A DNA stretch of 64,000 nucleotides from SAR202 cluster bacterium (GCA_016872285.1 VGZZ01000010.1:1-64000); one strand, 5' to 3'; shown: positions 1-55,895, counted from the first letter of the stretch. Program-made: numbers and translations. The notes: a model not told the origin generated them from the sequence alone.

Positions 1-477
1 GTTGCCGCCGTCCCACTCGCGTTTGCGCGTGCAGTGACGGCACAACAGCGGGCAGATGTCCGTTATGACAAAAAGCGCCCGGTCAGGGTACCTGTGCACC
101 AGCCCGGGGACCGGCGAATCGTCCCGCTCGTCCAGCGGGTCGTCCTCACCCGCCTCGGGGTGAGTAATCTCTTCAAAGGATGGCAGGGACTGCAGCAATA
201 CCGGGTCGTTGGGGTCGTCGGCCTGGACCAGCGACAGGTAGTAAGGGGTTATGGAAAAGGGGTACTTGACGCTGACCAGCTCCAGCTGCTTCCTCTGAGT
301 CTCCGTAAGCGGATAGACTCTAGCCAGCTTCTCAACGTTATTGAACCGGTTCCTGAAGTGCCATTTCCAGTCGTCCCACTGCTCCTGGGTAGGCTTTAAC
401 GCCTCCCAAATGCGGTCTTTTAAGGTAAGTTTGGGCCTACTACCCGGAGGCTCCTTGATTTGGGTTATGGTGGTCAT
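1..477 (-). CDS. KamA-family radical SAM aminomutase (N-terminal part, cut by window edge)
   Basis: Partial gene: 159 codons from an ATG at 477 run off the left edge in frame. The N-terminal block with WKWHFRNRF resembles the start of lysine/glutamate 2,3-aminomutases. The segment RYPDRALFVITDICPLLCRHCTRKRE holds the CxxxCxxC radical SAM cluster motif followed by the HCTRKR stretch typical of KamA-type enzymes. Family members move an amino group from the alpha to the beta carbon using SAM, PLP and an Fe4S4 cluster; the PLP lysine would lie outside the window. An AGAGGA-like ribosome site precedes the ATG. It is the last visible gene of a minus-strand cluster with two ATP-grasp ligases and a GNAT fragment. 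The substrate (lysine, glutamate or other) cannot be told from this part. The family call is secure; the specific function is not. Confidence 0.88.
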   Translation of the reverse strand, partial: MTTITQIKEPPGSRPKLTLKDRIWEALKPTQEQWDDWKWHFRNRFNNVEKLARVYPLTETQRKQLELVSVKYPFSITPYYLSLVQADDPNDPVLLQSLPSFEEITHPEAGEDDPLDERDDSPVPGLVHRYPDRALFVITDICPLLCRHCTRKREWDGGN

Positions 478-547
478 CAGACTATTCCTCTTTCTTGCTT
501 TTTAGGCCGCGGCCAACGTGCAGGGTTCCACAGGGCAATTCAGGAAG

Positions 548-760
548 TCAGGGCGTCATTCCTTGCGTACCTCCCCCGCTAAAAATCCTGCGTAAGGCAA
601 ACCAGGAATCCCCTATATCATGAAAGTCAGGTATGACGCTCACTTGGATGTATCCCGATGAGCGATAAAACCCCCGGGCGGGACGGTATTTCCGGGACGG
701 CCAACTATCAGCGGCCGCCATTTTCTCGGCCTTCCTATGAAGCGCGTATCGCGGCGTCAT
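548..760 (-). pseudogene. GNAT acetyltransferase, C-terminal remnant
   Basis: A 70-codon frame ends like a GNAT acetyltransferase: PARGFYRSSGY matches the conserved A-R-x-F-Y-R-x-x-G-[FY] segment near the C-terminus, followed by an IPDFHDIGDSW stretch and a short basic tail. Complete GNATs are about 140-170 residues. The acetyl-CoA binding loop (R/Q-x-x-G-x-G/A) and the first strands are absent, so about half the domain is missing. Its ATG lies inside the 3' end of the upstream ATP-grasp gene (26-base overlap), as in a coupled operon, so an internal or 5' deletion of a once complete gene is likely. The residues before the homologous part (MTPRYALHRKAEKMA) could be leftover N-terminus. It is probably not functional, but a sequencing deletion is possible. 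Confidence 0.6.
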
Positions 761-1763
761 GGCTATGAGATCTGGCTCCTTCTAGAGCAAGCTCCATAAT
801 TTGTCCCACCAGGTCCTTATATGTCATCTCGCAGGTCCTGGACTGCAAAGCCAGGCCCGCGCCGGGGGATAGGTCCGGGTTTGGGTTCACCTCCAGGAGA
901 TGCAAGCGTCCCGCGACGTCCCCCCTAAGGTCCACCCTGGCGTAATCAGGCGCCCCGACGATCCGGTGGGCCGACAGGGCCATCGCCTCGATTTCCCGCA
1001 TTGTCTCCTGCTCCACCAGCGCCGGGCAGACCGGCGTCGCCTTCTTGTATGCCGGGTCGCTGGTTGTCCACTTCGACGCGTAGGTCAGTATGCGAGGACC
1101 AGGATAGTCCTCAGCGTAAACAATCTCAGACGGCGGCAAGACCCTGGGGTTTTTCCCTCCAAGAATGGAAGCGTTAAACTCCCGGCCCGGCAAGAACAGT
1201 TCCACCAGCGCGGGCTGCCGGTACGTCTCGACTATAAACTCAACCTGTCGATCCAGTTCGCTGACGTTATATACAACGCTGGAGAAGTTGCAGCCCTGGG
1301 AGGCATCCTCCCGTGCCGGCTTTACGATCACTGGGAACTCCAGGCGGAACTGCCCTGGTTCCACTTTCTCGAACACCTGGTAATCAGCCGTCAGCACACC
1401 AAAGGAGCGCAGCCGCTCCTTGGTCCTGGCCTTGTCCAGACAGAGCGCGAGGGTGGAAGAAGCCGCTCCGGTAAAGGGCCGGCCCATATCCTCCAGCACT
1501 TCGGCTAGCTGCCATTCAGTATCGGAATCGTCCCCGAAGCCCTCAAAAAGATTAAAGAACACGTCCGCGTCGCAGGCGCGCAGCTTTTCAACGGCGCTAG
1601 CCAGCGGGGGCTCCAGTCCCAAAAGGGTTGTGGTATAGACCAGGGCGTCCAGCGATTCCTTGATGGCCGCCACTGACTCCATAACGCCGGCAATGGCCGC
1701 CTTGTCGCCGCGGGTCCACCGTTTTGAGGGAGCAGGCTGGTTATAAATGACCGCCACTCGCAA
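735..1763 (-). CDS. ATP-grasp ligase, D-Ala-D-Ala ligase-like (second of tandem pair)
   Basis: A 342-residue ATP-grasp protein. A preATP-grasp domain (about residues 1-100) contains DVFFNLFEGFGDDS, then LALCLDKARTKERLRSFGV, then the nucleotide-binding part with FPVIVKPAREDASQG and ALVELFLPGREF. The C-terminal metal site is HLLEVNPNPDLSPGAG, the E-x-N motif of D-alanine-D-alanine ligases. It should form an amide bond between a carboxylate (activated as acyl phosphate) and an amine. The start is a TTG at 1763, six bases after the stop of the paralogue upstream, so the pair is co-transcribed and probably coupled. It resembles that neighbour throughout (shared LALCLDK block, YRQPALVE segment), so the two arose by tandem duplication. 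It is unlikely to be the cell-wall Ddl given the pairing with a KamA-type enzyme; the substrate is unknown. Confidence 0.85.
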   Translation of the reverse strand: MRVAVIYNQPAPSKRWTRGDKAAIAGVMESVAAIKESLDALVYTTTLLGLEPPLASAVEKLRACDADVFFNLFEGFGDDSDTEWQLAEVLEDMGRPFTGAASSTLALCLDKARTKERLRSFGVLTADYQVFEKVEPGQFRLEFPVIVKPAREDASQGCNFSSVVYNVSELDRQVEFIVETYRQPALVELFLPGREFNASILGGKNPRVLPPSEIVYAEDYPGPRILTYASKWTTSDPAYKKATPVCPALVEQETMREIEAMALSAHRIVGAPDYARVDLRGDVAGRLHLLEVNPNPDLSPGAGLALQSRTCEMTYKDLVGQIMELALEGARSHSHDAAIRAS

Positions 1764-1768
1764 CGTGG

Positions 1769-2779
1769 TTATTTCACACCTACCAGTTCACAGCGTTCCA
1801 GGGCGGCTTCCAAGATACCCCCAATTAACTGGTTGTAGCTTTGGCCCATGAGTCCTGCCATAATCGGCAAGTCGCTATAAACCGGCGATAACCCCGGCAG
1901 GGGATTCACCTCAAGAAAATAGGGTCGATTTTTTCCATCGACCCGGAAGTCAAATCGCGCCATGTCTCTGCATTGCAGTCCTTTATGCAAAGCCAGCGCC
2001 ATGCCCTCTATCTCCTTCAGCGTCTGCGGGGGCAAATGCGCCGGACAGCGATACGACACCAGCCGCTGCCAGTCCCGTTTCACCTCCAGCGTATACATGA
2101 AATTGTCCCCCGCGCCGTTGCGCGGCACCACCTCCATAACTCCTGCCACCTGCGGCGGGCGATTTCCCGTAACCCCTACTGTTATCTCCTTGCCGGCGAT
2201 GAACTCTTCCACCAGAGCGGGCTGCCTATACATCCTATGTACGGCTTCAACCGACGCCGCCAGGTCTTCCAGATTTCCCACTTTAGAAGTGAGCCGGATA
2301 CCCTTGCTGGAACCTTCAAAAGCTGGCTTGACAACCAGAGGCAGGCTAAGTCCATCAGCTAGGGCCAGGTCAACGGCCTGCGTATGATCTAAAACAGCGT
2401 AGCGCGGCGTCCTGACTCCCAGGGACTCGGCCACTCTCTTGGTGAGGGGTTTGTCCAAACAAAGCGCCAGGGTCAGCGGGTCAGCCCCGGCGTATGGGAT
2501 CCTTAGCATCTCCAGGACGCCGGGCACCTGCGCTTCACGGCTTCGATAGGTGCCGCGGCCTTCGGAAATGTTGAAGACAAAGTCTACCTTCTCGTTCAGG
2601 ACCGACTGCAAAAACTCGATCCCGCCTCCCAGACGTACCACCTTGTGCCCCAGCCGCTCAATTTCGCCAGCCAGGGCGTCAATGGTATCCGGAGGGTCAC
2701 ACTCCTCGGTCTCGTCCTCCGGAGCGCCCGGGCGTACCTCTACCGCGGTCTTCAGGTCGTAGGTGAGCCCTATCTTCAA
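1769..2779 (-). CDS. ATP-grasp ligase, D-Ala-D-Ala ligase-like (first of tandem pair)
   Basis: A 336-residue member of the D-Ala-D-Ala ligase-like ATP-grasp group. Visible motifs in order are VDFVFNISEGRGT (N-terminal domain), LALCLDKPLTKRVAESLGV, LPLVVKPAFEGSSKGI (ATP-grasp lysine and glycine-rich loop), ALVEEFIAGKEITVGV and YFLEVNPLPGLSPVYSD (metal-binding E-x-N). A TTG start at 2779 is preceded by a strong GAGGAGAGG ribosome site. It heads the minus-strand cluster that continues with a paralogous ATP-grasp gene, a GNAT remnant and a KamA-like aminomutase. Inference: the two ligases may condense an unusual (for example beta-) amino acid with another substrate. A plain Ddl role is less likely because no mur genes are nearby. 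The family call is strong. Confidence 0.87.
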   Translation of the reverse strand: MKIGLTYDLKTAVEVRPGAPEDETEECDPPDTIDALAGEIERLGHKVVRLGGGIEFLQSVLNEKVDFVFNISEGRGTYRSREAQVPGVLEMLRIPYAGADPLTLALCLDKPLTKRVAESLGVRTPRYAVLDHTQAVDLALADGLSLPLVVKPAFEGSSKGIRLTSKVGNLEDLAASVEAVHRMYRQPALVEEFIAGKEITVGVTGNRPPQVAGVMEVVPRNGAGDNFMYTLEVKRDWQRLVSYRCPAHLPPQTLKEIEGMALALHKGLQCRDMARFDFRVDGKNRPYFLEVNPLPGLSPVYSDLPIMAGLMGQSYNQLIGGILEAALERCELVGVK

Positions 2780-4431: not shown

Positions 4432-4465
4432 AAAGCGGCCAGGCACGCGCGTGCCTGGCCGCTTT
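4432..4465 (+). terminator. Perfect 17-bp inverted repeat, probable terminator
   Basis: Two perfectly complementary 17-base arms (4432-4448 and 4449-4465; AAAGCGGCCAGG... paired with ...CCTGGCCGCTTT) start 8 bases after the stop codon at 4423. The stem is very GC-rich and flanked by AAA/TTT, so it could end transcription in both directions, although the T run is short. It lies between two genes of the metal block, so it may only lower downstream expression. Because its right arm would be the first codons of a GTG start at 4451, the ATG at 4487 is the better start of the next gene. Confidence 0.7.
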
Positions 4466-4486
4466 ATCTGTAACCGCGGGGTGCCT

Positions 4487-6778
4487 ATGAAATTCTCTTT
4501 ATTGACCCCTACACGAGTTGTTCTAGCAGCCCTTTTGCTGGGTCTGGCCGCCCTCTTCTCGCTTCCCTCCGCCGCGCCCGCCTCTGCCCATGCCAACCTC
4601 ATCCAGTCCGGACCTGCCCCTGACTCGGTCCTGGACTCGACTCCGGCCGGCATTACCTTACGGTTCAGCGAGCCTATCGCTCCGTCCTTCAGCTCTATCG
4701 AAGTCCTGAACGCCGCGGGGCAGCGCGTGGACCAGCGCGCCCTGCGATTCGACGCCAACGACTTGACGCTTATGGCGCTGGACCTGCCTGTCCTGCCCAA
4801 CGGCACCTACACCGTCGTCTGGCGCAACCTCTCCACGGTGGACGGCCACTCGGTCAGAGGCAGCTTCGCCTTTTCCATCGGCGAGCCGCTTACACCCCAG
4901 GAGCCGGTGGAATCCGAGCCAGGGTTGTTTCAGTCTCCAGCCTCGCCTCCGATACGATGGCTCGTTCTCCTAAGCGGGATGGTCATGGTTGGCGGCTTGG
5001 CTTTCTACACTCTGGTGTTGTCGCCATTCTTCTCGAAAAACTCCACAAGCCCACAAATACGGAAACTCGGCCAGTCCCTAAAATCCCAAGCGCTGAAAAC
5101 TTCGCTTCTGATGGCGCTCCTCTTTCTCGCAGCTTCCGCAGCCCAGCTCTTGGTCCAGGCCTCCACAGCCGCCGACACGACCTTCCTCAAGGCCTTCGGC
5201 AGTCCCCTGCGTACGGCCCTTCGCGACACCGAATGGGGCCATCTTTGGCTTTGGCGGACTGGACTGGGCCTTGCCCTTGTCCTCACCCTGGGCTGCCTAT
5301 CGTTTAAAGCCTTCCAGTCCTCCGACGCGAAACGTGAAAGCATCCGTGTATATCTCGAAACCTTCGGCCCCTACCTGGCCCTGGCCCTTGGCTGCGCCTC
5401 CCTCTTCGCCATCAGCATGGCCAGCCACAGCGCCGCCCTTACCGATATTAAGGCCGCCGCGGTCTTCACCGATTACAGCCATCTGCTGGCTTCCGCCTTC
5501 TGGGCCGGAGCCCTGGTCCATCTGGCCCTGGCCCTGCCCCTCTTCTTTAAGTCCCTCAACCCCTCGGAACGTCAGACCGCCCTGGCCTCCCTGACGCCTC
5601 GATTTTCCATCATCGCGACCTTGAGCGTCGGGACGCTCATCATCACCGGCCTCTACAGCGCCTGGATGCACGTCGGCTCCTTTTCCGCTGTCGACACTCC
5701 CTATGCATACACCCTTATCGCGAAGACTGTCATTATCCTGCCTCTCCTCGCCTTCGGCGCCCTCAACATCCTCTGGGTGCGCCCTCGATTAAAGGGTAAC
5801 TCTGCGGCCAGCCTCTGGCTAAGAAGGTTTGTGATAGGCGAAACCGTCCTGGTGGTCCTGGTGGCGCTGTCCGTCGGTTTTCTCACAAGCCTGGAGCCCG
5901 CCAGGCAGGCGGACGAGTCCGACGGCGTCTCAGGCGCGGGCATACGGTTGAGCGACACCGTCGAGGGCATCAATGTCACCCTGCGCGTCGAGCCTGGGCA
6001 GATAGGCGTGAACCGCGCCTCGGCGGAGCTTCGAGACGCCGGAGGGACGCCCGTCGGCAACGCGTCGCAGGTGGAGGTCACCTTCGCTTATCTGGAGGCC
6101 GACGTCGGCGCGTCGACTCTAACCCTATCCAACCAGGGCCGCGGGATTTACGTCTCGGACTCCGCCTTCCTCAGTCTCCAGGGCCAGTGGCAGGCTGAGG
6201 TGACAGTCCGCCGCCCCGACGCCTTTGATACCCGCACCGCCTTTCGATTTGCTGTCGCCGCTCCGGGCCAGGCTGTCGGTGGCGCCGCCCCGGAAGAGGA
6301 CATCGCCAGACTGCTTCTGGGCATCGAGATCATTTTGATGGGAGCGCTCTTCGTATCGGTGGGCATCGCCGTCGGCGGCTGGTTTACCGGCAGGGGGGCG
6401 GTCCTTGTGGGGCCGGGCGTCGTGGCGGCCATCTTCGGGGTCTCACTAATGTTCAACAGCGGCGCTTTCTCGGACGAGGAAATAACCACAGGCCCCTTCC
6501 CGCCCAACGCCGAGTCGCTGGCTAAAGGCAAGGCTTTATACCAACAGCACTGCATCGCCTGCCACGGCGTCGGCGGCCGGGGCGACGGCCCCGCCGCCGG
6601 CGGACTCAGCCCGCCTCCCCTGGACCTGACGGTACACGTGCCCCTGCACACCGCCCAGGAGCTGCTCGGCTTCATCGAAAACGGAATCCCCGGCACCGCC
6701 ATGCCCGCCTTTGACGACGTACTCTCATACGAAGAGAAATGGCACCTTATCAACTACATCAAGTCTCTGGCCGAATGA
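4487..6778 (+). CDS. CopC-CopD-cytochrome c fusion, copper resistance/import protein
   Basis: 763 residues from the ATG at 4487. After a signal peptide ending A-S-A, the mature protein begins HANLIQSGPAPDS, the CopC copper domain, with the second ligand pair visible in STVDGHSVRGSF. A CopD-like region follows with about eight membrane helices, including a TYSHL-type site (FTDYSHLLASAFWAGALVHL). After it come a beta-rich extracytoplasmic segment (about 480-600), two more membrane helices and a C-terminal class I cytochrome c domain with CIACHG (haem attachment) and a probable Met ligand in GTAMPAFDD. YcnJ-type CopC-CopD fusions are known; the added cytochrome domain is unusual and suggests that copper transfer or redox change is linked to electron transfer. 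Single polypeptide, no frameshift seen. It sits after an exported protein and before a Fur-family regulator. Confidence 0.9.
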   Translation: MKFSLLTPTRVVLAALLLGLAALFSLPSAAPASAHANLIQSGPAPDSVLDSTPAGITLRFSEPIAPSFSSIEVLNAAGQRVDQRALRFDANDLTLMALDLPVLPNGTYTVVWRNLSTVDGHSVRGSFAFSIGEPLTPQEPVESEPGLFQSPASPPIRWLVLLSGMVMVGGLAFYTLVLSPFFSKNSTSPQIRKLGQSLKSQALKTSLLMALLFLAASAAQLLVQASTAADTTFLKAFGSPLRTALRDTEWGHLWLWRTGLGLALVLTLGCLSFKAFQSSDAKRESIRVYLETFGPYLALALGCASLFAISMASHSAALTDIKAAAVFTDYSHLLASAFWAGALVHLALALPLFFKSLNPSERQTALASLTPRFSIIATLSVGTLIITGLYSAWMHVGSFSAVDTPYAYTLIAKTVIILPLLAFGALNILWVRPRLKGNSAASLWLRRFVIGETVLVVLVALSVGFLTSLEPARQADESDGVSGAGIRLSDTVEGINVTLRVEPGQIGVNRASAELRDAGGTPVGNASQVEVTFAYLEADVGASTLTLSNQGRGIYVSDSAFLSLQGQWQAEVTVRRPDAFDTRTAFRFAVAAPGQAVGGAAPEEDIARLLLGIEIILMGALFVSVGIAVGGWFTGRGAVLVGPGVVAAIFGVSLMFNSGAFSDEEITTGPFPPNAESLAKGKALYQQHCIACHGVGGRGDGPAAGGLSPPPLDLTVHVPLHTAQELLGFIENGIPGTAMPAFDDVLSYEEKWHLINYIKSLAE

Positions 6779-6842: not shown

Positions 6843-7283
6843 ATGGTCTCAGAAAAGCACATAACCATCTCCCAGCTTGAGGAGCCTTTCGCCCGCCGCA
6901 CCTCCTCCCGCCGCGCCGTCCTTGACGCTGTCGCCGCATGGCCCGGCCACTTCTCCGCCGAGGAGCTTTGCAAGACCGTCCCCCGCGCGGGCCGCGCTAC
7001 CGTCTACCGTACCCTGGCATCCCTGCAAGAAGCCGGCATCCTCTGCCGCGTCATGGTAGACAACGGCTCGCCACGATACGAGTTGGGCGGCGGCAGGCAC
7101 CACCACCATCTGGTCTGCGTCGACTGCGGCCAGGTACAGGACATCGCCGGCTGCGGCCTCGACGATTTTGTCGAGCGCGTGTCCCGGCGCTTCGGCTACG
7201 AGACTGAGGGCCACCGACTGGAGGTCTATGGACGGTGCGCCAGGTGCCGCGATACTAACGGAAAAGAAGGAACACCGCCTTAA
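6843..7283 (+). CDS. Fur-family metal-responsive transcriptional regulator
   Basis: 146 residues, usual length for the family. The N-terminal winged helix contains RRAVLDAVAAWPGHFSAEEL and GRATVYRTLASLQEAGIL, the recognition-helix consensus of Fur/Zur/PerR. The C-terminal dimerisation part has the histidine cluster GGGRHHHHLVCVDCGQVQDI with the first CxxC (CVDC) and a second CxxC (CARC) near the end, giving the structural zinc site. The gene is followed by a ZnuABC-type importer with only a short gap, so control of zinc (Zur) or manganese uptake is likely. Fur (iron) or PerR roles cannot be excluded from sequence. It has its own promoter upstream. Confidence 0.9.
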   Translation: MVSEKHITISQLEEPFARRTSSRRAVLDAVAAWPGHFSAEELCKTVPRAGRATVYRTLASLQEAGILCRVMVDNGSPRYELGGGRHHHHLVCVDCGQVQDIAGCGLDDFVERVSRRFGYETEGHRLEVYGRCARCRDTNGKEGTPP

Positions 7284-7344
7284 ATCTTAGCCTCTCTTTT
7301 TTTGAAGTTTAGTGATACTACATCTCATTAATAAGGAGACAGCA

Positions 7345-8370
7345 TTGTCCACTCTCGCCGGTCATATAAAACGTCACAGCCTACGATTGCTGGCATCTTT
7401 CCCTCTCGCACTTTGCCTACTGGCGGGCCTGGCCCTGTCAGCCTGCGGCGATAACGGCTCCGCCCGCGCGTCCGACAAGCTAAAAATAGTCACCACCGCC
7501 AGCTTCATTGATGACTGGGTCCGGGAGGTGGGCGGGGAGCGGGTGGACAGCTTTAGCCTCATCCCCCTCGGCGCCGACCCCCACACCTACCAGCCAGGCG
7601 CCGGCGATGTCAGCCGCTTAGCAGACGCTAACATCGTATTCAAGCTCGGCCTCACTTTCGAGTCCTCAAACTTCGACCGCCTGCTGGATAACACCGTAAC
7701 CGACAAAACAAATCTTGTCGCTCTAGGCGAATCGGTGCAGCCTATACCCTTTGAAGAGACTCACGAAGAGCACGTGGACGAGGAGGAGGCGGAACACGAT
7801 GAGGAGGAAGAGGAGGGCGAACATGAAGAAGAGCATGGCAAATTCGACCCCCATTTCTGGTTTGACCCCTTAAAGGTTAAGGATGCGGTCAGCAAAATCG
7901 CCGACACGCTTTCTCAAGCCGACTCTGACGGCGCCGCCGTTTACTCGCGGAACGCTGGCCGCTATATTCAGCAGCTTGATGAGCTTCATGAGTGGATACG
8001 GCAGCAGGTGGCGCAAATTCCCGTGGAGCGGCGGCTTTTGATAACCAGCCACGAGAGCCTGGGATACTTTGCTCACCGGTATGAATTTGAGGTGGCTGGC
8101 GCCATCATTCCAAGCCTGAGCACAGAGCAGGAGCCATCGGCCCAGGCCATTGCCCACCTCGTGGAAGAAATAAAAGAACACAACGCGCGCGCCATATTTG
8201 CCGAAAGCACCCTCAGCGACCGTCTGGCCCAAAATATAGCCCGCGATGCTGGCGTCAAAGTGGTCACTAAACTCTACACCGAGTCCTTAGGCCCCTCCGG
8301 GAGCGGCGCCGATACATATATAAGTATGATGCGTTACAATGTTCAGGCCATTGTGCACGCCCTGAAGTGA
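7345..8370 (+). CDS. znuA: Zinc/manganese ABC transporter substrate-binding lipoprotein (ZnuA/TroA type)
   Basis: 341 residues. The TTG at 7345 is chosen because AAGGAG lies six bases upstream (7333-7338); the longer GTG frame from 7312 has no such site. The N-terminus has a lipobox (LALSAC), so the protein is membrane-tethered. TroA-family metal ligands are visible: GADPHTYQPG (first His), DPHFWFDPLKV (second His), SHESLGYFAHRYEFE (third His) and a final acidic ligand in IFAESTLSD. Between the first two lies a loop of about 40 residues almost entirely Glu, Asp and His (HEEHVDEEEAEHDE...). His-rich loops here are typical of zinc ZnuA proteins; this one is mainly acidic. It overlaps the ATPase gene by four bases (GTGA), showing translational coupling. 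Confidence 0.92.
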   Translation: MSTLAGHIKRHSLRLLASFPLALCLLAGLALSACGDNGSARASDKLKIVTTASFIDDWVREVGGERVDSFSLIPLGADPHTYQPGAGDVSRLADANIVFKLGLTFESSNFDRLLDNTVTDKTNLVALGESVQPIPFEETHEEHVDEEEAEHDEEEEEGEHEEEHGKFDPHFWFDPLKVKDAVSKIADTLSQADSDGAAVYSRNAGRYIQQLDELHEWIRQQVAQIPVERRLLITSHESLGYFAHRYEFEVAGAIIPSLSTEQEPSAQAIAHLVEEIKEHNARAIFAESTLSDRLAQNIARDAGVKVVTKLYTESLGPSGSGADTYISMMRYNVQAIVHALK

Positions 8371-9149
8371 ACTCCCAAAATGGCAGCAAGCCCCTCGCCG
8401 TCGAGGCCAGAGACCTTGTAGTTGAGCTGGGGGGCGTACGCGTGCTGGAGAGCGTCAGTTTCGGCGTGAAACAGGGCGTGCTTATGGGCGTGGTCGGCCC
8501 CAACGGCGCGGGCAAGTCAACGCTATTCAACACCATTGCCGGGCTGGTCGCTCCACAGCATGGACAGGTGCTAATTCACGGCCATGCACCCCAGCGAGTC
8601 CGAGGGCCCCTGGCCTACGTGCCCCAGCGTGAGCAGGTGAACTGGCGATTTCCCCTCACCGTGTGGGATGTGGTGCTGCTGGGCCGCTGCTGCAAAATCG
8701 GCGTTGTTCGCCGCCCGGGCCGCGCTGACCGGGAATTAGCCATAGTGTGTCTGGAAAAGGTTGGACTCCTGGATAAACGCCTGGCCCTGGTCTCCCAGCT
8801 TTCCGGCGGCCAGCGGCAGCGGGTCTTTGTCGCCCGCGCCCTCGCCCAGGAGGCCGATGTCCTTCTGCTGGACGAGGCCTTCAGCGGCATCGACGTCGGC
8901 TCCCAAGAAGGTCTTGTGGAAGTCCTCAGGACTCTTCGAGACGAGGGCAAGACCATCCTCACCGCTACCCACGACCTCACCAATCTCGCCCGCCGTTTTG
9001 ATGAGGTTCTGTGTATTAACCGCCATATCTGCGCCTGCGGTCCGCCGTCCCAAGTTTTCACGCCCGCGGTCCTGGAGGAACTGTACGGGGCCCATGGGAT
9101 GCTCTATACCAACCCTTCGGTTGAGCAAGGTCATGGACACCATAGTTAA
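8367..9149 (+). CDS. znuC: Metal ABC transporter ATP-binding protein (ZnuC type)
   Basis: 260 residues from a GTG at 8367 that overlaps the stop of the binding-protein gene. All ABC ATPase motifs are intact: Walker A GPNGAGKSTL, Q-loop YVPQREQVNW, signature LSGGQRQRVFVARAL, Walker B VLLLDEAFSGID and H-loop TATHDL. The protein would energise zinc or manganese import with the permease encoded directly downstream, whose start lies 17 bases inside this gene. The DEAFSGID sequence after Walker B is common in ZnuC/MntB-type ATPases. No odd features. Confidence 0.93.
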   Translation: MNSQNGSKPLAVEARDLVVELGGVRVLESVSFGVKQGVLMGVVGPNGAGKSTLFNTIAGLVAPQHGQVLIHGHAPQRVRGPLAYVPQREQVNWRFPLTVWDVVLLGRCCKIGVVRRPGRADRELAIVCLEKVGLLDKRLALVSQLSGGQRQRVFVARALAQEADVLLLDEAFSGIDVGSQEGLVEVLRTLRDEGKTILTATHDLTNLARRFDEVLCINRHICACGPPSQVFTPAVLEELYGAHGMLYTNPSVEQGHGHHS

Positions 9150-9957
9150 TTATCTGGCCGATCCTTTTCAGTACGGCTTTATGGTGCGGGCCTTAGTCGC
9201 CAGTGTGCTGGTGGGAATCCTCTGTCCCCTCCTGGGCGGCTACGTGGTGACTCGCGGCTTTGCCTTTATGGGCGACGCCCTTTCCCATGCCATTCTCCCC
9301 GGCGTTATCGCCGCATTCATCGTCGGCGTGAGTCCCTTTATCGGCTCCGTTCCCGTGGCCATAGCCCTGGCCCTGCTCATCGGATTTGTTGTCCAGAGAA
9401 CGGGTGTCAGCGAAGACACATCCATCGGCATTCTCTTTGCCAGCCTGTTCGCCCTCGGCCTTGTGCTCCTGTCCCTCAACGACGGCCTGAGAGTGAATCT
9501 GGAGGACCTTCTGTTAGGCCAGGTACTTGGCGTTTCCACGGCGGACATTTTCGTGACTGTGGCCCTGGCGGCCCTGGTAATTCTGCTGCTTTTCCTGTTC
9601 CACAAAGAGATGGTCTTCACCAGCTTCGACCCCGTGGGGGCAAAAGTTGTGGGTCTGCCCACAGCGGCAATTGACTACTTGCTGGTGGCCCTGTTGGCCC
9701 TAGTCATAGTCATCTCGGTCCAGACAGTGGGCATAGTTCTCGTCATGGCCATGCTGGTCACACCCGCCGCGACGGCCTATCTGCTGGCGGGGCGCTTTGT
9801 GGGCGTGATGCTCTTGGGCGCCGTCCTGGGAATGGCGTCGGCTATTACCGGCCTCTATCTCTCCTACTATTTGGACTTACCATCCGGCGCTGCCATGACC
9901 CTTGTAGCTACCGGCGGGTTTACCATCGCCGCGATTTTCAGGAAGAGAACCGTTTAA
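9133..9957 (+). CDS. znuB: Metal ABC transporter permease (ZnuB type)
   Basis: 274 residues from the ATG at 9133, preceded by CAAGG and overlapping the ATPase gene by 17 bases. The same frame stays open further upstream, but that part is a shadow of the ATPase gene. The protein belongs to the ABC-3 family: an FQYGFMVRALVAS start, GFAFMGDALSHAILPGV (a conserved segment of these permeases) and about eight membrane helices ending in GFTIAAIFRKR. It would form the membrane channel of the zinc/manganese importer. The order binding protein, ATPase, permease is classical, and the three genes are tightly coupled behind the Fur-family gene. Confidence 0.92.
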   Translation: MDTIVNYLADPFQYGFMVRALVASVLVGILCPLLGGYVVTRGFAFMGDALSHAILPGVIAAFIVGVSPFIGSVPVAIALALLIGFVVQRTGVSEDTSIGILFASLFALGLVLLSLNDGLRVNLEDLLLGQVLGVSTADIFVTVALAALVILLLFLFHKEMVFTSFDPVGAKVVGLPTAAIDYLLVALLALVIVISVQTVGIVLVMAMLVTPAATAYLLAGRFVGVMLLGAVLGMASAITGLYLSYYLDLPSGAAMTLVATGGFTIAAIFRKRTV

Positions 9958-13482: not shown

Positions 13483-14673
13483 TTGAAGTACAACGTCATC
13501 TCCGGCGATTCGCACGTAGATATGAGCTGGCTACCCGGCGACCTCTTCGTCAAAAATTGCAGCAAACCCAAGCTTCGGGATCTCATGCCACGCATCGTCG
13601 AGACCAAGGACGGCCTTCGATGGATCGCTGAGAAGGACAACGTCCTCGGCGTCGCCCAGTCCGCCGGATTCGAGTTCATCAAGCCCCAGCCCGGAAGATG
13701 GCGCCGCACCGACAAGATGCTGGCCGCCGGCTTCTACGACGGCCCCGCCCGCCCCGTCGACCCAGAGCTTCGCCTCAAGGACATGATGACCGACGGCGTA
13801 GACTGCGAAATCCTCTACGGCATCACCGGCGCAGGCAAGAACCTCCACCAGGACGATGTCATCGCCGAGGTCTACCGCACATACACCGACTGGGCTAATG
13901 AGTTCGCCGGCAGCTATCCGGGCCGCTGGTATGTCCTCGCGCCCCTGCCCTTCCACGACGGCAAGCTGGCCGCCGCCGAGGCCCGGCGTGCCTCCAAGCT
14001 CAAGTACGTCCGTGGCTTCGACCTCATGGCCAGCCAGTGCAAACATCCCATCTACGCCCGTGACGGCTATTGGGACGAGCTGTGGGAAGTCGTCAACGAC
14101 ACCGGCCTCTCCATCTCATCCCATCTTGGCGGCGGGCGCATCCCTGTCCAGGACCCGCCCGGCGGCAGCACCGCCTTCGTCATTGAAGGCCGCAAAGCCA
14201 ACCAGAACGAGATCGCCTGGCGCGGCGTCATGGGCGCGCTGGGACAGCTCAGCGGCGTTCAGTATATGTGCGCCTTCCTCATGAACGGCGCCTGCCAGAA
14301 GTACGAAAACTTTAAGTTTGTAATGGGCGAGGCCGGCACTGGCTGGATACCCTTCATCCTCAACCGGCTGGACCACGCCTACAGCGAGCAGTACTTCGAG
14401 AGGATTGTCAAGAACCCGCCCATGCCTGAGCCGCCCAGCTACTACTGGGCCAGGCAGGGCTACACCACCTTCCAGGAAGAGCCCAGCGCCGGCCAGCTGG
14501 CCCACCTCGTCGGCATCAACAACGTCATGTGGGGCAGTGACTATCCCCACCCCGACAGCACCTGGCCCGATTCCCAGGAGGTCATCCACGAAGCCCTGGG
14601 TAACCTCAAACCCGCCGACTTGAAGAAAGTCCTCCGCGACAACGCCATTAAACTCTACAACGTGGGCAAGTAA
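13483..14673 (+). CDS. Amidohydrolase-2 family metal-dependent hydrolase, paralogue 1
   Basis: 396 residues from a TTG with AAGGAGG eight bases upstream. The protein is a TIM-barrel hydrolase or decarboxylase of the amidohydrolase-2 family (PF04909 type). Metal-site candidates are ISGDSHVDMSW (Asp/His at strand 1, in place of the usual D-x-H-x-H), SSHLGGGR (central His) and MWGSDYPHPDS (C-terminal Asp and the SDYPH signature). It shares long identical blocks with the gene at 23395 (NCSKP, FYDGPARPVDPELRLKDMM, DCEILYGITG) and fewer with that at 20593. The three copies frame a set of catabolic genes. The family includes decarboxylases and lactone/amide hydrolases acting on aromatic or cyclic compounds; the exact substrate is unknown. 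Confidence 0.88.
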   Translation: MKYNVISGDSHVDMSWLPGDLFVKNCSKPKLRDLMPRIVETKDGLRWIAEKDNVLGVAQSAGFEFIKPQPGRWRRTDKMLAAGFYDGPARPVDPELRLKDMMTDGVDCEILYGITGAGKNLHQDDVIAEVYRTYTDWANEFAGSYPGRWYVLAPLPFHDGKLAAAEARRASKLKYVRGFDLMASQCKHPIYARDGYWDELWEVVNDTGLSISSHLGGGRIPVQDPPGGSTAFVIEGRKANQNEIAWRGVMGALGQLSGVQYMCAFLMNGACQKYENFKFVMGEAGTGWIPFILNRLDHAYSEQYFERIVKNPPMPEPPSYYWARQGYTTFQEEPSAGQLAHLVGINNVMWGSDYPHPDSTWPDSQEVIHEALGNLKPADLKKVLRDNAIKLYNVGK

Positions 14674-14686
14674 CCCTGTCCGCCAC

Positions 14687-14729
14687 GCCGCCCCGACCGC
14701 CGAAAGGCTTCGGGGCGGCTTTTCTTTTT
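14687..14729 (+). terminator. Rho-independent terminator
   Basis: GCCGCCCCGA (14687-14696) pairs perfectly with TCGGGGCGGC (14710-14719), followed by TTTTCTTTTTA. It separates amidohydrolase paralogue 1 from the small exported-protein gene that starts at 14742. Confidence 0.88.
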
Positions 14730-14741
14730 AGGGGGCGCCCT

Positions 14742-15290
14742 GTGCCCTTCCCAATCTACATCACCACTATCTTTGCTTTACTGACTGCTATCCTTTTCTC
14801 GCTGTCTATCGCATCCGCCAACGGCATCCACCCCAGCAGCGAGGAAATCTTCAACGGCCCCATAGGCCCTTACACCGCCCGCGTCCTGGCCGTCCGGCAG
14901 GGCAGCCAGTTCCACCTCACCATCGCCATAGTCGACACCAGCAGCGCCATCCTCCCCTCGCGCCCCACCGTAGTCGTGCGAGGCCAAAGCGTCGCCGAAC
15001 CCGGCCTTACCATCGGCCCAGCCACTGCCGAGCCCTCCAGCGCGGGCGAGCAGTGGCATACCGTCACCTTCCCGGCTCCCAAGCCCAGCCAGTGGCGCTT
15101 CCACATGACCATCAACGGCCCTCTGGGCCAGGCCTCTACCAACTTTGAAGGCCCCATCCGCGAAGGCGGCGGCTTCAACTGGTTTTACCCCATCGCCGCC
15201 ATCGCCGCCCTGGCCGGCGCTTGGGGATACCTTGCCTGGCGTAGAAACCAGGCCTTGAAGAAAATAACCCGCCTCAAACAAAGCCCCTAA
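14742..15290 (+). CDS. Exported protein with C-terminal membrane anchor
   Basis: 182 residues from a GTG at 14742. An N-terminal signal segment (TTIFALLTAILFSLSIASA) is followed by a mature region starting NGIHPSSEE, an Ig-like/beta-sandwich stretch (GPYTARVLAVRQGSQFHLTIAI, HTVTFPAPKPSQWRFHMTINGP) and a single C-terminal helix (WFYPIAAIAALAGAWGYLAWRR) with a basic tail. The overall plan matches the 210-residue protein at 3791 (GPY motif near the mature start, beta domain, stalk, anchor). The two may be distant paralogues, perhaps metal- or redox-related. It sits just after a terminator, so it probably has its own transcript. No family name can be given. Confidence 0.65.
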   Translation: MPFPIYITTIFALLTAILFSLSIASANGIHPSSEEIFNGPIGPYTARVLAVRQGSQFHLTIAIVDTSSAILPSRPTVVVRGQSVAEPGLTIGPATAEPSSAGEQWHTVTFPAPKPSQWRFHMTINGPLGQASTNFEGPIREGGGFNWFYPIAAIAALAGAWGYLAWRRNQALKKITRLKQSP

Positions 15291-55628: not shown

Positions 55629-55699
55629 AATCACGTACGCTTTGGCAATAGCAGGTGAAAGCCTGCCGCAGGAGCAATCTGTAAGGCGCAGAGTTTGGC

Positions 55700-55880
55700 T
55701 CCAATTTTCCTGAGCAGGTCTCCTGGCTCGCGGATCTTTGCTTGACCGACACCTTCCCGCCCCGGATTATCGGGACAGTGGTCTTATGTCGGCGGCTCCC
55801 CGCTTACAGTGGCGCTACCGCGACGGCTTTTCACCGTCTTCCCTTTTCAGCCTTTTCAGGCGCTCAAGGACAGTAATCTT
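55700..55880 (-). ncRNA. Cobalamin (AdoCbl) riboswitch
   Basis: Minus-strand RNA with the AdoCbl riboswitch marks in order: GGGAAGACGGTGAAAAGCCGTC (as two halves GGGAAGACGGTG and AAAAGCCGTC), GCGCCACTGTAAGCGGGGAG near 55806-55814 (the conserved GCCACTG core), GGGCGGGAAGGTGTCGG and the B12 box GAGCCAGGAGACCTGC at 55714-55729. Spacing and order agree with the Rfam Cobalamin class. It controls btuC-btuF-btuD and the cob genes downstream through the terminator at 55597. Confidence 0.95.
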
Positions 55881-55895
55881 TTAAAGAGCAACCCT

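Follow-up and report, generated by a model that had tools for sequence, protein, structure and literature searches.

Several described systems bring together the kinds of enzymes that are encoded at the locus studied here. In the N-epsilon-acetyl-beta-lysine pathway (AblA/AblB, YodO/YodP), a KamA of the lysine 2,3-aminomutase type adjoins an acetyltransferase. ATP-grasp enzymes acting together with GNAT acetyltransferases make dipeptide solutes in other bacteria, and N-acetylglutaminylglutamine amide synthesis (AsnO/Ngg), in which an ATP-grasp ligase and a GNAT yield an acetylated dipeptide osmolyte, follows the same logic as the module described below. A comparable logic operates in pyrrolysine synthesis (PylB/PylC/PylD), where a radical SAM enzyme makes an isomer of lysine and an ATP-grasp ligase joins it to another amino acid. 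The D-alanine--D-alanine ligases (Ddl) and the VanA/VanG-type ligases share with our two ligases the fold, the ATP/Mg site and the catalytic Arg, Asp, Glu and Asn, and glutamate 2,3-aminomutase (TIGR04368) belongs, like our aminomutase, to the KamA family.

The locus differs from each of these systems. Compared with AblA/AblB it adds two Ddl-fold ligases, here called A and B, which are more constant than its acetyltransferase. Unlike the AsnO/Ngg proteins, its products are separate and not fused, lack an amidotransferase and include a radical SAM aminomutase; no asparagine-synthetase-like amidotransferase was recognised by eye beside the set in the window or in the loci read, and none was a recurrent neighbour. 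Unlike the pyrrolysine genes, it has two ligases and no PylD-like oxidase in the cluster, and KamA-type PLP aminomutases do not include PylB. The cluster is real and conserved, and it is neither an ordinary Ddl locus nor the known acetyl-beta-lysine operon, being instead a new combination of known kinds of enzymes. Our literature search found no paper describing such an aminomutase/ATP-grasp cluster, and a 2009 survey of ATP-grasp amidoligase neighbourhoods may list it.

Layout of the locus in the source genome

The window, a stretch of 64,000 nucleotides from a SAR202 cluster bacterium of the Dehalococcoidia, begins with the first base of contig C10; the source genome comprises 2.6 Mb in 83 contigs. 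A preliminary description of its first 2,779 positions had reported two tandem ATP-grasp ligases, a GNAT fragment and a KamA on one strand with tiny gaps, which both the open reading frames and the profile matches confirm. All four genes lie on the minus strand, with A followed by B (5 nt apart; 36% identity between the two), the GNAT relic and the start of kamA:

1769-2779, minus strand: ligase A, a Ddl-fold ATP-grasp protein of 336 aa with a TTG start, the first gene of the set here
735-1763, minus strand: ligase B, a second Ddl-fold ATP-grasp protein, of 342 aa with a TTG start
551-769, minus strand: GNAT acetyltransferase relic (alignable piece about 736-551), frame open, stop at 550-548
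1-477, minus strand: 5' part of kamA (radical SAM aminomutase), interrupted where the contig ends after 159 codons; these N-terminal codons encode CxxxCxxC
G000:C32:1-957 (ORF on another contig): remainder of kamA, joined in frame to the C10 part

The truncation of KamA noted earlier lies in the contig only. The missing stretch (residues 161-398 of the model) was found from base 1 of contig C32, and the two parts join in frame into a 477-aa protein, the junction falling between ...KREWDGGN and WWIRRQPQ... with zero residues missing in comparison with relatives, whose sequence at this point reads KREWDGGWWIRQKPQ or KREWDGENWWFRRTPQ. KamA is whole in the genome and the break belongs to the assembly, not to the gene; the in-frame second half on C32 rules out a pseudogene.

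Over residues ~111-172 of the 172-aa GNAT that relatives have in intact form, the GNAT relic shows 32% identity (E 2e-7), and in the frame opening at 769 the alignment runs from residue ~101 on. Since the alignment is confined to the last ~72 residues, the remnant is a true C-terminal relic (~72 of ~172 residues) whose acetyl-CoA half has been deleted. The earlier mention of an acetyltransferase relic thus holds for the window locus and no further, the gene being intact in nearly all relatives and a full-length, distant homologue being present elsewhere in the source genome (G000:C31:8838-9308, 157 aa, 37% identical to the cluster GNAT). This homologue groups (support 91) with GNATs of A-GNAT-B sets from another Chloroflexota class and may be standing in for the lost neighbouring copy; its presence weakens the idea that the source genome has lost the acetyl step. 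Close to it are spermidine-synthase-like and AdoMet-decarboxylase-like ORFs, named by eye (L192, 8835-11760).

Conservation of the four-gene module

Across the 393 Dehalococcoidia genomes of our class survey, a strong A was present in 74 and the KamA of the set in 78, with both in 73, A only in one and KamA only in five (Fisher p 4e-72, kinship ignored; the genomes are related to each other and the co-occurrences are not independent events). KamA, A, B and GNAT were contiguous on one strand in 32 of the 39 fetched loci according to ORF calling, and in 34 when tblastn was added, with reading frames mostly overlapping or nearly abutting. Together the four genes make up a conserved, operon-like module, which much of this difficult-to-culture bacterial class retains as one unit. 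That the four families belong together, as was proposed from the window alone, is upheld by this linkage, and the expected conservation in related genomes is seen in the KamA that accompanies A in 73 of 74 genomes. The cluster GNAT type is also tied to the module: it occurred in five of 60 relatives, all five with the KamA of the set.

The gene order is A-B-GNAT-KamA in the lineage of the window and KamA-A-B-GNAT elsewhere. Within the taxonomic order of the window genome, three genomes (G018, G019 and G055) carry the set and a fourth (G053) carries at least GNAT-KamA; six relatives in the same family are without A and B. Scanning of genome contigs recovered the set in three close Dehalococcoidia and at two Omnitrophota loci, with KamA-A at one of the latter (L026) and A-A'-KamA at the other (L027); a locus from Lake Baikal (L028) reads DUF3109-A-B-GNAT-KamA with frames overlapping or close, and another (L024) holds A-KamA only. 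Other Chloroflexota classes have the full KamA-A-B-GNAT (L176), KamA-A (L177) or A, GNAT and B together (L180 and L181, where KamA is not on the short loci read). Within the class survey, A-B-GNAT is unlinked from KamA in G329, where KamA is present on another contig.

Some loci are shorter. Only KamA and A, without B and GNAT, are found in g71, a small one-contig genus of family f54, and GNAT is missing from L129 as well as from L121 and L122. With B and GNAT absent from the g71 loci and GNAT from L129, the end product must vary.

Two further observations concern additional copies in family f54. A one-contig genome has a third, B-like ATP-grasp gene (377 aa; L193, 6175-7308) far from the cluster, and no kamA match was obtained on the L193 stretch around it. 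Three small genomes (G072, G107 and G154) show a second KamA match, for instance at G072:C1:317763-318854, which is embedded in a larger open frame of about 764-784 aa and perhaps represents a fusion.

Ligases outside the Ddl branch and a probable lysine-type aminomutase

Both ligases match Dala_Dala_lig_C (PF07478; A 1e-34, B 2e-24), and their AlphaFold2 models (pLDDT 91.7 for A and 89.0 for B) found only Ddl among the top Foldseek matches in the PDB (E about 1e-26 to 1e-22, TM relative to the target 0.71-0.89). The best NCBIfam matches of both are all labelled D-alanine--D-alanine ligase, and annotation pipelines see A and B as Ddl. The fold and these labels speak for A and B being ordinary or slightly diverged cell-wall ligases, of D-Ala-D-Ala or D-Ala-D-Ser/Lac type, that stand beside kamA by chance. 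We consider this reading highly improbable in view of scores, phylogeny, substrate residues and genomic context. Against the curated Ddl model PRK01372, with a cut-off of 243 bits, A reached 174 and B 121, whereas a control Ddl from Nitrosomonas reached 427. In a quick IQ-TREE analysis of 69 sequences, a branch with SH-aLRT 100 separated all 20 Ddl/VanA rows, among them fragments of the solved chains 4ZQI, 8EVY and 3SE7, from A and B; the B sequences all fell into one group and the Dehalococcoidia A into a second (support 96 each), with Ddl apart from both. The ligases therefore stand apart from ordinary cell-wall Ddl, and the grouping that would have refuted the preliminary reading is not seen.

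The residue comparison, for which 43 A and 41 B sequences were aligned with 20 of Ddl and numbered as in Ddl, points the same way. Nine ATP, Mg and catalytic positions (K97, K144, E180, E187, K215, R255, D257, E270 and N272) are kept in A and B with almost no exception, and because of this A and B should be active ATP-grasp ligases. The substrate positions of Ddl (the E15 region with its GGxSxE motif, H63, Y216, G276 and L282) are replaced: GGxSxE is missing from both A and B, both carry Glu in place of H63, Y216 is replaced by Arg in 43/43 A and by Trp in 41/41 B, G276 by Asp in 40/41 B, and L282 by Asp in 43/43 A and by Gly in all B. Moreover, S150 is A/G in 41/41 B, and S281 is retained in part of A only. 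The invariant Arg at the omega-loop position of A could, speculatively, bind an acidic partner. The genome itself has no MurC above the cut-off (best 29.6 bits against 335) and no other Ddl-like gene was found in it; cell-wall D-Ala-D-Ala synthesis is consequently not a sensible role for A and B, and the envelope component that the preliminary description had allowed for is disfavoured insofar as it would be made by D-Ala-D-Ala chemistry. A plasmid search with ligase A returned eight distant rhizobial ATP-grasp genes, all below 37% identity, which we set aside as relatives of the module given this distance and the absence of kamA from the two neighbourhoods read.

The kamA frame in the window (477-1) matches aminomutase models only (TIGR04368 2e-42, TIGR03820 8e-41), and the KamA of the Lake Baikal locus, 71% identical to the N-terminal part in the window, aligns with lysine 2,3-aminomutase 2A5H over 361 residues (E 7e-126). 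The PLP lysine K337 and the three cysteines of the 4Fe-4S cluster are present in 45/45 KamA sequences, the window gene included. The alignment to 2A5H also places D293 and D330, which we take to hold the side-chain amine of lysine in that structure, and each is found in 44/45 sequences (one gap), again including the window protein. At these two positions the module KamA keeps the lysine-type aspartates, whereas glutamate 2,3-aminomutase presumably has Lys and Asn, and its scores against the glutamate model TIGR04368 (437-480 bits) stay under the cut-off of 650. Scores against the AblA equivalog are 462-478 bits for the Dehalococcoidia proteins, under the cut-off of 525, and 537 bits, above it, for the Omnitrophota protein of L027. 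The preliminary description had KamA making a beta-amino acid, and the lysine-binding aspartates narrow this to beta-lysine as the likely product and lysine as the likely substrate; with scores below the AblA cut-off, arginine or another amino acid is possible.

A KamA with lysine-binding residues next to a GNAT also suggests that the locus could encode the N-epsilon-acetyl-beta-lysine osmolyte pathway, the ligases serving something else, all the more since beta-lysine is a known osmolyte precursor (PMC9337991). This is unlikely: besides the KamA scores, the cluster GNATs gave no match to the AblB model in NCBIfam, their best matches being to RimI-like and other GNAT models and all below cut-off, and A, found in 73 of the 78 KamA genomes, is more constant than GNAT, which L121, L122 and L129 do without. 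We regard as very unlikely, too, that the targets of KamA and the ligases are macromolecules, such as a protein or lipid to be beta-lysylated in the way EpmB/EpmA act on EF-P. EpmB is a relative of KamA and amide-forming enzymes are at hand, but the module KamA scores only 237-252 bits against the EpmB model (cut-off 369), the cluster showed no EpmA-like gene, and A and B resemble amino-acid ligases more than protein-modifying ATP-grasps.

Proposed pathway and neighbouring genes

Enzyme classes, intact catalytic residues, substrate pockets different from those of Ddl and tight gene linkage can all be read from the sequences; the specificity of ATP-grasp enzymes is unreadable in this way, and for the substrates, the bond and the role of the module we infer the following. 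The module would probably constitute a short biosynthetic pathway, running from lysine to beta-lysine, through one or two ligations, to acetylation. KamA, a radical SAM and PLP enzyme, would turn L-lysine into beta-lysine by moving its alpha-amino group. Ligase A would use ATP to form an acyl phosphate on one carboxylate, which would then be coupled to the amine of another amino acid; since KamA and A are the constant pair, A would most simply use the product of KamA, and its simplest product would be a dipeptide containing beta-lysine. B and GNAT look like later steps, and B is usually present where GNAT is. Ligase B would add a further unit or use what A has made, and an amine of the product would be acetylated by the GNAT, a task for which the C31 copy has perhaps replaced the dead neighbouring GNAT in the source genome. 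KamA and A would be the core and B and GNAT add-ons; the outcome would be a soluble small molecule, such as a compatible solute.

By analogy, a compatible-solute role is plausible, because beta-lysine derivatives act in this way elsewhere and dipeptide solutes made by an ATP-grasp enzyme with a GNAT are known in other bacteria. The beta-lysine derivatives that serve as compatible solutes in other organisms are described in PMC9337991 and PMC12776343. The scan for osmotic RNA switches described below, which found none near the clusters, speaks against this role. That one of the close relatives is from fresh water (Lake Baikal) lends no support to a response to salt as the sole reason for the module. 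More tentatively, and with the balance somewhat against it, the product may be an acetylated di- or tripeptide of beta-lysine, of a class not described before, made by dedicated non-Ddl ligases in Dehalococcoidia and in scattered other Chloroflexota and Omnitrophota, possibly as the main organic solute or as an intracellular signal. A defined product would account for the odd Ddl-like genes of genomes such as the one studied, which has no MurC above the cut-off; it would identify enzymes that form beta-peptide bonds independently of ribosomes and NRPS, and might prove to be a new compatible solute or a marker metabolite.

The neighbouring genes bear on whether the product is instead exported, as a secondary metabolite or metal-binding compound based on beta-lysine, and not a bulk solute. 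Among the loci examined, transporters lie upstream in some, of MFS type in 7 and of ArsB/CitMHS type in 11, and Fur-ZnuA-ZnuC-ZnuB genes are nearby in the window and in L121 and L122. The transporters, however, are not constant, the zinc genes near the cluster in the window and in L121 are only distantly homologous (ZnuA 23% identity) and not seen in other loci, and a gene set retained so widely in the class is more in keeping with a house-keeping function, which makes a secreted compound rather unlikely. The ArsB/CitMHS-family permeases, found upstream of KamA in L124-L126, L128, L134, L147, L148 and L158-L160, scored, where scanned, under the curated cut-offs for arsenite pumps. The Fur, ZnuA, ZnuC and ZnuB set of the window (6843-9957, plus strand) is about 4 kb from ligase A, and that of L121/L122 directly follows KamA-A; their proximity to the cluster is perhaps a coincidence, and the case for a zinc-related role is weak.

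Neither osmotic riboswitches (Na+, c-di-AMP) nor other Rfam RNA regulators were found near the ten cluster loci scanned or near the cluster in the window, whose sole Rfam match is a cobalamin riboswitch at 55696-55882 (minus strand, 115.8 bits). A cysteine-rich DUF3109 gene directly precedes A in the three nearest clusters only (L028, 5213-5827; L085, about 14179-14775; L088, 11994-12572). By genome, it stands beside A only in G018, G019 and G055, and it is missing from the window genome. Beside the cluster in the window is a CopC-CopD-cytochrome c fusion of 775 aa (4451-6778, plus strand).
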